Shown here: positions 12,503-43,311 of the stretch, piece by piece | Layout of the letters: each line of letters starts with the position of its first letter | Numbering within the stretch: the first letter of the stretch is position 1 | NCBI GenBank assembly: GCA_011523765.1 | Contig: WTGA01000143.1 | Coordinates: 1-53,375 of the forward strand | DNA length: 53,375 bases | From: Gammaproteobacteria bacterium | GTDB taxonomy: Bacteria; Pseudomonadota; Gammaproteobacteria; Arenicellales; Poriferihabitantaceae | Reading direction: 5' to 3' | Notes under the pieces: generated by a model | The model's database searches: none | What the model was told of the DNA's origin: nothing | The model's input: only the letters and a program-made list of their open reading frames with translations | Program-made: the position numbers and the translations under genes

Positions 12503-12895
12503 TCAGCCAAGCCGTTCCAGCGGAACCGGTTTTCGGTCGTCGTCAATCGAAACGTAGGTATAGCAGGCTTCCGTTACTTTCAGGTTCTCCCTTTGCTGGT
12601 GTCTGCGCCGCACCCAGGTCTCAATGTGCACGGAGATGGAGGTGGTGCCGACTTTCCGGGTCTCGCAGTAACAGCTGACCTGGTCCCCGATCAGCACCGG
12701 CAGGTGGAAATGAATGCCGTTCACCGCGACGGTGACCAGGCGTCCCTTGACCGTATAGCTGGCATGAATCGCCCCTGCGAGGTCCATCTGGGACATGATC
12801 CAGCCCCCGAATATGTCCCCGCTCGGGTTGGCATCTGCCGGCATGGCGATGGTCCGCAACGAAGGCATCCAATCCACCGGGGGACCTTCGGTCAC
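12503..12895 (-). CDS. Acyl-CoA thioesterase, YciA-type hotdog protein
   Basis: A 130-residue single hotdog-domain protein hydrolysing acyl-CoA esters. It has the family core TIAMPADANPSGDIFGGWIMSQMDLAGA, with the conserved N, D and G residues of the active site, and later a V(A)VNGIHFHLPVLIGDQVSCY strand. The length is normal for YciA. It begins 3 bp after the stop of the deoxynucleoside kinase, so the two form an operon. YciB and YciI relatives lie just beyond on the other strand, a neighbourhood also seen around yciA in enterobacteria. Confidence 0.87.
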   Translation of the reverse strand: MTEGPPVDWMPSLRTIAMPADANPSGDIFGGWIMSQMDLAGAIHASYTVKGRLVTVAVNGIHFHLPVLIGDQVSCYCETRKVGTTSISVHIETWVRRRHQQRENLKVTEACYTYVSIDDDRKPVPLERLG

Positions 12896-12898
12896 GGT

Positions 12899-13534
12899 TC
12901 AAACCACCGGGTTGAAATAATGCCGCCCGGAAGAAATGCGATGAATTTCATCCAGCAGCAAACGGTAATATTCATCATTGTCCAGAAAACCCAGGTTTTC
13001 GGCATTGACCATCAGCAGTGCCGAATCCCGGTAACCCAGGAAGTACCGCATGTAGGATTCCGTCAGTTGTTGCAGGTAATCCCTTTCCATGTTTCGCTCA
13101 AACAGCAACCCCCGTTTGCGGATCCGGCTGATCAGTACATCCGTGGGGGCCTGCAAACAAATCACCAGGTCCGGGGTTGCCATGTCGATGACCAGGTGCC
13201 GGTAGACCTGGCGGTAAAGATACAGTTCTTCTTCATTCAGGGTGATCTGCGCAAAGATCGGGTCCTTGTCCAGCATGAAATCGGCGACGTGGACGGGCGC
13301 GAGCAAATCCTCCTGACGCAGGGCCTTGATCTGCCGGGCACGCTGAAACAGGAAAAACAGCTGGGTCTGGAGAGCGTATTGTTCCGGTGCCTTGTAGAAC
13401 CGCTCCAGAAACGGGTTGTCGTTGGGTTCCTCGAGGATCAGCGCCGCACCCAAAGACGATGCGATGCGCCGTGCCAGCGTGGTTTTCCCGACCCCGACCG
13501 GCCCCTCTACGACAATGTACTTTTTACCAGTGAT
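12899..13534 (-). CDS. Deoxynucleoside kinase (deoxyadenosine/deoxyguanosine kinase family)
   Basis: A protein of about 211 residues phosphorylating deoxynucleosides. The P-loop is GPVGVGKTT (residues 11–19 with the start used here), preceded by KKYIVVE; later landmarks are VADFMLDKDPIFAQ, DLVICLQAP, the lid-like RIRKRGLLFER and YLQQLTESYMRYF. There is no in-frame ATG, GTG or TTG between the upstream stop and the P-loop; the first standard codon is TTG at 13453, after it. An ATC at 13534 has AGAGG six bases upstream and gives the usual short leader, so it is proposed as a rare start; a one-base sequence error in the A5 run at 13521–13525 is the alternative. Confidence 0.8.
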   Translation of the reverse strand: MTGKKYIVVEGPVGVGKTTLARRIASSLGAALILEEPNDNPFLERFYKAPEQYALQTQLFFLFQRARQIKALRQEDLLAPVHVADFMLDKDPIFAQITLNEEELYLYRQVYRHLVIDMATPDLVICLQAPTDVLISRIRKRGLLFERNMERDYLQQLTESYMRYFLGYRDSALLMVNAENLGFLDNDEYYRLLLDEIHRISSGRHYFNPVV

Positions 13535-13626
13535 TTCAAACCTCTTTGTGTACTTGGCGGGACAACCGCGTATACTCTCATGCTTTCCGGTTCAGCCCCA
13601 AAGGCCATTATAGTATATCAAGATCA

Positions 13627-14196
13627 ATGAAAATCCTGTTTGATCTGTTTCCGCTGCTGCTTTTTTTCGGCGCGTTTAAATTTTACGATATTTATATCGC
13701 CACTGCCGTAGCAATTGCGGCAACTTTTGTACAGGTGACCGTGTTCTGGGCAAGGCACCGGCGCTTCGAGGCCATGCACCTCATGACCCTGGGCATCATT
13801 TCCGTCTTCGGCGGCTTGACCATCTATCTCCAGGACGATGCATTCATCAAGTGGAAACCCACGGTGGTGAACTGGCTGTTCGGGTTCGTCATCCTGGCCA
13901 TGTTGTTCACCAGGAAATCCGCGCTGGAATATGTCATGGGCAGGCAAATCTCCCTGCCGACGCCCGTCTGGAGAAAGCTCAACTGGGCCTGGGCGGCATT
14001 TTTTCTTGTCCTGGGTTTGCTGAACCTGTACGTCGCTTTCTACTACAATCCAGGTGCGGACGAGGCGGTCCGTACTCAGACCTGGGTTCATTTCAAGGTA
14101 TTCGGGATCCTGGGGTTGACCCTGGTTTTTGCCATCGCCCAGATGCTGTTCATCTCCAGGCATATTCTTCCTGATTCCGTGACCAAAGAGGAATGA
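13627..14196 (+). CDS. yciB: Inner-membrane septation/envelope protein YciB (IspZ family)
   Basis: A 189-residue integral membrane protein with about five hydrophobic segments beginning [18 protein letters not shown], the typical YciB N terminus, followed by [13 protein letters not shown] and later [17 protein letters not shown]. The family affects cell envelope and septation; its molecular activity is unknown. The frame is open from 13546, but ATG at 13627 matches the conserved start. Its stop codon lies within the ATGATGATG at the start of the YciI gene, giving a tight two-gene unit divergent from the deoxynucleoside kinase. Confidence 0.9.
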
Positions 14197-42212: not shown

Positions 42213-43311
42213 CTACAGCCCTGCCTTCAGGCTCGCTTCTATGAACTGGTTGATGGATCCGTCCAGGACCGCCTGGGTATTCCCGGTCTCCACCCCTGTC
42301 CGCAAATCCTTGATCCTGGACTGGTCGAGGACATAGGACCGGATCTGGCTTCCCCAGCCAATGTCGGATTTCCCTTCCTCCTCGATTTGCCGCTCTTCCC
42401 GCCGTTTCTGCATTTCCGCTTCATACAGCCTGGCCTTGAGCATGGACATCGCTTCATCCCGGTTCCTGTGCTGGGAACGGTCATTCTGGCACTGTACCAC
42501 GATTCCGCTTGGATGATGGGTGATCCGCACCGCAGAATCGGTTTTGTTGACATGTTGCCCGCCGGCACCACTCGCCCGATAGGTGTCGATACGAAGGTCT
42601 GCGGAGTGGACGGTGATTTCGAAACTGTCATCAATTTCAGGATAGGCAAATACCGAGGCAAACGAAGTATGCCGGCGGTTCCCGGAGTCAAAAGGGCTTT
42701 TTCTGACCAGCCGATGGACTCCTGTCTCGGTTCGCAAGAACCCGTATGCATACTCTCCGGACACTTTCAGCGTCGCACTCTTGATCCCGGCCACATCGCC
42801 CGGAGACCGGTCTATCAGGTCGAACCGGTAGGCCTGATCTTCCGCCCACCGTGTGTACATCCTCAACAACATCTCAGCCCAGTCCTGGGCTTCCGTCCCG
42901 CCCGAACCGGACTGGATATCAATGAAGGCATTGTTGATATCCGCTTCCCCCCGGAACATTCTTCTGAATTCCATTTGATCCAGTCTGCCCTCGATGGATA
43001 CAACCTCCCGGGCCATCTCTTCCAGTGTATCGGCATCGTCTTCCATCCACGCCAGTTCCAGCAGCTCACCCGCTTCGGTAGCCTGCTCCCCCAGCCGGTC
43101 CAGTCCTGCGACCGTCTTCTCCAGGTCCGCCCGTTCCCGGCCCAGTTGCTGTGCCTGCTCCGGGTTGTTCCAGATGGCCGGGTTTTCCAGTATTAAATCA
43201 ACTTCTTCCAGGCGTTCCTTCTTGCCTGTGTAGTCAAAGATACCCCCTTAGTGCCTCGATACGCACGACTGATCTGGACAGTGATTCTCTTAATTCGTTG
43301 GGGTTTGGCAT
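42213..43311 (-). CDS. prfB: Peptide chain release factor 2, expressed by programmed +1 frameshift
   Basis: A 365-residue release factor recognising UGA and UAA. The first 25 codons run from ATG at 43311 ([10 protein letters not shown]) to CTT at 43237, where an in-frame TGA (43236–43234) stops the frame; skipping one T continues GAC from 43235 to the stop at 42213. The catalytic GGQ occurs in [19 protein letters not shown], and the SPF-type recognition segment is in [14 protein letters not shown]. Join both segments for the real product; treating the second alone yields a truncated protein. lysS follows. Confidence 0.95.
43233..43248 (-). promoter_or_regulatory. prfB programmed frameshift site
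   Basis: On the minus strand the sequence is AGGGGGTATCTTTGAC: an internal Shine–Dalgarno-like AGGGGG, three bases, the slippery CTT and a TGA stop followed by C, the same arrangement as in E. coli prfB. It makes RF2 synthesis autoregulated: slow termination at UGA when RF2 is scarce allows the +1 shift. Confidence 0.95.

Follow-up and report, generated by a model that had tools for sequence, protein, structure and literature searches.

How can a gene be translated when its reading frame holds no standard start codon ahead of the P-loop of the encoded protein? The question is raised by a predicted deoxynucleoside kinase gene on the minus strand of the window, i.e., the whole stretch of 53,375 nucleotides analysed here (contig WTGA01000143.1 of the gammaproteobacterial assembly GCA_011523765.1). 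From 13591 the kinase frame continues without interruption to its stop at 12901-12899, and no in-frame ATG, GTG or TTG occurs between the TGA that precedes it and the P-loop. Only past the P-loop, at 13453, does an in-frame NTG (a TTG) appear, so that gene callers restricted to NTG starts would truncate the kinase past this motif. Reading of the frame confirms the claim of an earlier note on this DNA that the kinase has no standard start codon ahead of its P-loop. The same note bounded the frame by a TGA near 13587; there is an in-frame TGA, but it is found at 13594-13592. The note's candidate start, an ATC at 13534 placed six bases after AGAGG, is borne out by the sequence (ATC at 13534-13532, AGAGG at 13545-13541). 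We propose that the kinase is very probably translated from this AUC, which belongs to a family-wide conserved class of AUH starts (AUU, AUC or AUA; ATH in the DNA), and that its output is likely to be low and dependent on initiation factor IF3. The features on which the argument draws are the following.

12899..13534, minus strand: deoxynucleoside kinase gene, 211 codons plus stop when counted from the AUC proposed as its start.
13532..13534, minus strand: proposed start codon ATC (AUC), placed by the ATH that 18 of the 21 family members share at this codon and by the onset of substitution periodicity.
13541..13545, minus strand: AGAGG as Shine-Dalgarno sequence, separated from the ATC by 6 bases and placed by its duplex energy with the 16S tail.
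13478..13504, minus strand: P-loop GPVGVGKTT, from the translation; its G and K positions are invariant in the kinase alignment.
13592..13594, minus strand: in-frame TGA upstream of the kinase, the limit of possible starts.
13569..13581, minus strand: ATGAGAGTATACG motif, common to some relatives.
13627..14196, plus strand: divergent neighbour, septation protein A (IspZ; NF001325, 219.4 bits, cut-off 180).
12503..12895, minus strand: downstream neighbour, a YciA-like acyl-CoA thioesterase with a GTG start (4HBT, 1.7e-14; NF007970, 6e-39, under its cut-off).

By its match to profile PF01712 (E 2.2e-32; 112.9 bits, cut-off 27; P-loop present) the gene product is a deoxynucleoside kinase, with a predicted activity in the salvage of DNA precursors, and the deoxyguanosine kinase of solved structure 2jas is among its relatives (E 1.4e-15). 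The gene is single-copy in the source genome and has been kept in 20 other genomes of the same GTDB family. The surroundings of the gene are also partly kept, as judged from neighbour names that were assigned in the relatives by reading the sequences by eye rather than by family searches: a YciA-like thioesterase gene lies downstream in several relatives, and a divergent ispZ or yciI lies upstream in most of the family members read, genus g6 not being among them. In genus g6 (L034 and L044) the kinase is located elsewhere, on the same strand after a gene end resembling metG, and has a normal GTG or ATG start.

The comparison within the GTDB family of the source genome covered 24 genomes, 21 of them with the kinase; the named member of the family is the sponge symbiont Candidatus Spongiihabitans thiooxidans (L066, whose kinase gene is that of L002), which NCBI places in Arenicellales, Ca. 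Poriferihabitaceae. The codon homologous to the ATC of the window precedes the GP of the P-loop by 30 bases, or by 33 in genus g8. It reads ATC, ATT or ATA in 18 of the 21 kinase genes, representing seven genera, and ATG in none. All three codons are in use, with ATC in L001, L007, L008, L011 and L013, ATT in L002, L003, L005, L009, L014, L015, L024, L030, L036 and L042, and ATA in L004, L006 and L010. Nine of the 21 genes (L001, L004, L005, L006, L008, L010, L011, L014 and L036) lack any in-frame NTG between the upstream stop and the ATH codon. The strictest case is L010, which reads TAA AGA CCC ATA; with only AGA and CCC between the stop and the ATA there is almost no room for an alternative start. 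The three exceptions to ATH are L012, where the codon is ACC, and the two members of genus g6, in which a GTG or ATG stands two codons downstream; at the aligned position L034 carries ATT as well.

The boundary of the coding sequence was assessed from the rates of mismatch at the first, second and third codon positions in 11 related pairs, aligned ungapped at the P-loop; the pairs share members and are therefore not all independent. Over these 11 pairs the mismatch is 0.70/0.64/0.67 at 60 to 31 bases upstream and 0.50/0.55/0.45 at 30 to 1 bases upstream, 0/0/0.45 at the ATH codon itself, 0.12/0.16/0.43 in the ten codons after it and 0.05/0.04/0.49 in the next ten. This pattern indicates that coding-type substitution begins at the ATH codon.

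The alternative that survives best is that the true start is an in-frame codon further upstream (GTG, ACG or another ATH) and that the isoleucine is an ordinary residue. An in-frame GTG, TTG or ATG is indeed present further upstream in L002, L003, L007, L009, L013, L015 and L024/L030/L042, and individual members of this set may use it. L012 and L013 (genus g3) probably do start upstream: both have gained an in-frame ATG and with it an N-terminal extension that begins MPD, and in L012 the ATH has subsequently disappeared, a further hint that the ATH serves as the start elsewhere in the family. As an account of the family, however, we consider an upstream start unlikely, because the upstream codons are neither conserved nor coding-periodic, stops occur a few codons upstream in several members, and codons 2 and 3 vary in the encoded residue among family members while codon 1 remains ATH. 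The GTG located 12 bases upstream in L024/L030/L042 was tried as a start and rejected, since it is missing in the sister species L036, which nevertheless retains the ATT after GAGG (GAGG TGTAAT ATT). A start further in, at a second conserved ATH (the Ile of Y-I-V-V), was likewise rejected: the Ile/Val of this beta-strand is also found in outgroups, the Shine-Dalgarno energies in front of it are mostly poor, and the codons preceding it are already coding-periodic.

The AUC of the window is preceded by a recognisable ribosome-binding site. The duplex of AGAGG with the canonical 16S tail, which may differ from the source genome's own 16S end, has an energy of -6.5 kcal/mol, a value equalled at no upstream background position, and AGAGG is mostly unpaired in the predicted fold of the leader. 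Energies computed in the same manner range from -5.9 to -8.6 kcal/mol in 11 members, representing six of the seven ATH genera. In genus g7 (L003, L005, L006, L010 and L011) and in L013, the pairing energy at the ATH codon does not stand out from background. The weak Shine-Dalgarno sites of genus g7 are the main point that an AUH start leaves unexplained.

In the genes sampled outside the family a standard start codon is available. The outside sample consisted of 102 kinase genes (79 named loci and 23 order mates), and all 102 have an in-frame NTG within 120 bases before the P-loop. In four of these outgroups (L017, L067, L068 and L069) the homologous codon itself is ATG. The earlier note had named a plain ATG at this position in relatives as a finding that would refute its claim; such an ATG is seen solely outside the family. 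Together with the 18 ATH codons and the nine genes free of NTG within the family, this contrast takes the observation beyond chance. The family forms one clade in the kinase tree (support 95/100), with genus g6 on a long branch, and the simple history would be that ATH took the place of ATG once, near the base of the family. A hand count on the kinase tree gives about six later changes at the third base of the ATH codon, all of them between T, C and A and none to G. This suggests that AUG is selected against at the kinase start, a proposition that is moderately supported because the changes are so few.

A broader possibility is that the choice of start codons has been relaxed in the whole lineage, for example by an altered IF3 or initiator tRNA, and that the kinase is one gene of many affected. 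The start of infC in the same family could be taken to favour this, since it is ATA in 20 of 22 genes and ATC in the other two (both in genus g6), always after GAGG at a fixed spacing. The infC genes of the family, including that of the source genome itself (L150, among L146-L167), differ in this ATA or ATC from the ATT of E. coli infC. However, infC is known to depart from the standard starts in many bacteria; what its starts do indicate is that initiation at AUH is already in use in this family, the kinase start being of the same type. Start codons were surveyed in 841 kb, made up of the window and some 790 kb from other contigs and amounting to roughly one quarter of the genome. The clear conserved genes without NTG among the 738 gene-like ORFs of this sample are the kinase, prfB and infC, the last being recognised separately by sequence. 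The count of three is provisional; the other candidates lacking NTG, among those examined, are short, antisense, IS-like or pseudogene-like. One frame without an early NTG (L190, 16955-17974, minus strand) encodes an IS481/IS3-type transposase and is probably a degraded or frameshifted insertion element. The main frame of prfB, the gene for release factor 2 (42216-43247 of the window, minus strand; TIGR00020, 492.9 bits), has no NTG start, as would be expected from the programmed +1 frameshift known for this gene. With so few clear cases in 841 kb, a general relaxation of starts is not supported, and we regard a lineage-wide relaxation as very unlikely.

A third alternative is that ribosomes initiate at an NTG outside the kinase frame and then shift into it, by slippage at the A5 run or elsewhere. 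The window does contain the required elements: the +1 frame offers a TTG (at 13539) and an ATG (at 13581), and the A5 run at 13525-13521 could serve as a slip site. The earlier note, which raised such slippage, had the A5 run in its correct place and was right that the TTG is out of frame, although it placed this codon one base off, at 13538–13536 instead of 13539-13537. Slippage does not hold up among the relatives, however. The TTG is missing in L002 (GGTTCAAAATT), L008 (GGTTTATTATC) and L009 (GGTTTATAATT); the nearby out-of-frame NTG codons differ in frame and position from one species to another, L002 having none within 60 bases upstream; and no coding pattern is found upstream of the ATH. 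A conserved upstream ORF in another frame together with a conserved slip site, as expected of programmed frameshifting, was not found among the relatives, and we consider a frameshift highly improbable.

The ATG at 13581 begins the ATGAGAGTATACG motif. The motif recurs, as ATGAGAGTATACG / GAGTATACG, in L002, L004 and L007 and, without the ATG, in L014, at varying distance from the kinase and in varying frame. A programmed frameshift from a leader ORF starting in ATGAGAGTATACG ('MRVY') was rejected, since across L002, L004 and L007 the motif takes each of the three possible frames with respect to the kinase and the ATG is absent in L014. This variation in frame and the missing ATG lead us to read the motif as a -10-like element (TATACG), possibly part of a promoter, to which the promoter scan gave no score; that a short leader ORF, out of frame with the kinase, begins here is less likely.

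The remaining alternative, a sequencing or assembly error that removed a normal start from the source genome, which is a single fragmented assembly of 177 contigs, is practically ruled out by the same ATH state in at least 18 separate genomes of seven genera.

We return to initiation at the AUC. The conserved ATH, the onset of coding periodicity at this codon and the use of the same class of codons by infC in the family argue strongly for rare non-AUG initiation, which the earlier note had listed among its options. Where the AUC lies, how widely it is conserved, where coding begins and what Shine-Dalgarno sequence precedes it are direct observations, and from them we infer that initiation takes place at the AUC itself and that selection keeps AUG out. 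The initiator tRNA would read AUC as formyl-methionine, positioned by AGAGG as Shine-Dalgarno sequence; of the three bases of AUH, the first two would pair with the initiator anticodon and the third would be left unpaired. IF3 would discriminate against such a codon, the kinase would be made at a fraction of the rate expected from AUG, and its output would follow the activity of IF3. The low yield and the sensitivity to IF3 are suggested by analogy with other genes that have starts of this kind. A further step, which we take tentatively and hold somewhat less probable than its opposite, is that AUH has become locked in, the third base drifting among U, C and A but never G, and that it couples the salvage of DNA precursors to the initiation machinery, with genus g7, which has no recognisable Shine-Dalgarno sequence, using some other route. 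With seven genera, three AUH codons replacing one another and AUG absent, the family represents a natural experiment on the selection of start codons, and comparative screens for coding boundaries at AUH could reveal further genes of this type. A literature search, incomplete in its coverage, returned no published case of this kinase with a non-canonical start.

To our knowledge, few bacterial genes with AUU, AUC or AUA starts have been characterised, namely infC, pcnB and, recently, ccpN, citZ and cvfC1 of S. aureus. The gene of IF3, infC, starts with AUU in E. coli, ATC in Streptomyces and AUA in S. aureus, and IF3 represses the start of its own gene. The kinase resembles infC in having a conserved AUH start, in most of its genera after a Shine-Dalgarno sequence; however, infC serves the autoregulation of IF3, whereas no connection with translation is known for the kinase, whose AUH start was encountered in a single bacterial family. 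The other clear case in the same window, prfB, also has a main frame without NTG, but that frame is known to be entered by a programmed +1 frameshift from an upstream start, whereas the kinase has no conserved upstream ORF. The AUU start of E. coli pcnB (Binns and Masters 2002, as cited in PMC9410913 and PMC13009471) provides a parallel outside the translation factors, i.e., a gene limited by its AUU start, a limitation that for the kinase we can only suppose; pcnB encodes an unrelated protein, and the kinase uses all three AUH codons, one replacing another. In S. aureus, ccpN (AUA), citZ (AUA) and cvfC1 (AUU) are expressed at about 10% of the AUG level in poor medium (PMC13009471). These genes share with the kinase AUH starts accompanied by Shine-Dalgarno sequences, but they are other genes in another phylum and their Shine-Dalgarno sequences are strong and extended, while that of the kinase is ordinary, and weak in genus g7. 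The GTC start of Streptomyces sigR is repressed by IF3 (PMC5472188). As with the kinase, this non-canonical start is conserved across relatives (genus-wide in sigR), and control by IF3 has been demonstrated for it; in contrast to the kinase, the codons are GUC or GUU rather than AUH and the gene encodes a sigma factor. The best reading of these comparisons is that the kinase adds a new gene to a small class, that of genes whose non-canonical starts are conserved, alongside infC, pcnB, ccpN/cvfC1/citZ and sigR.
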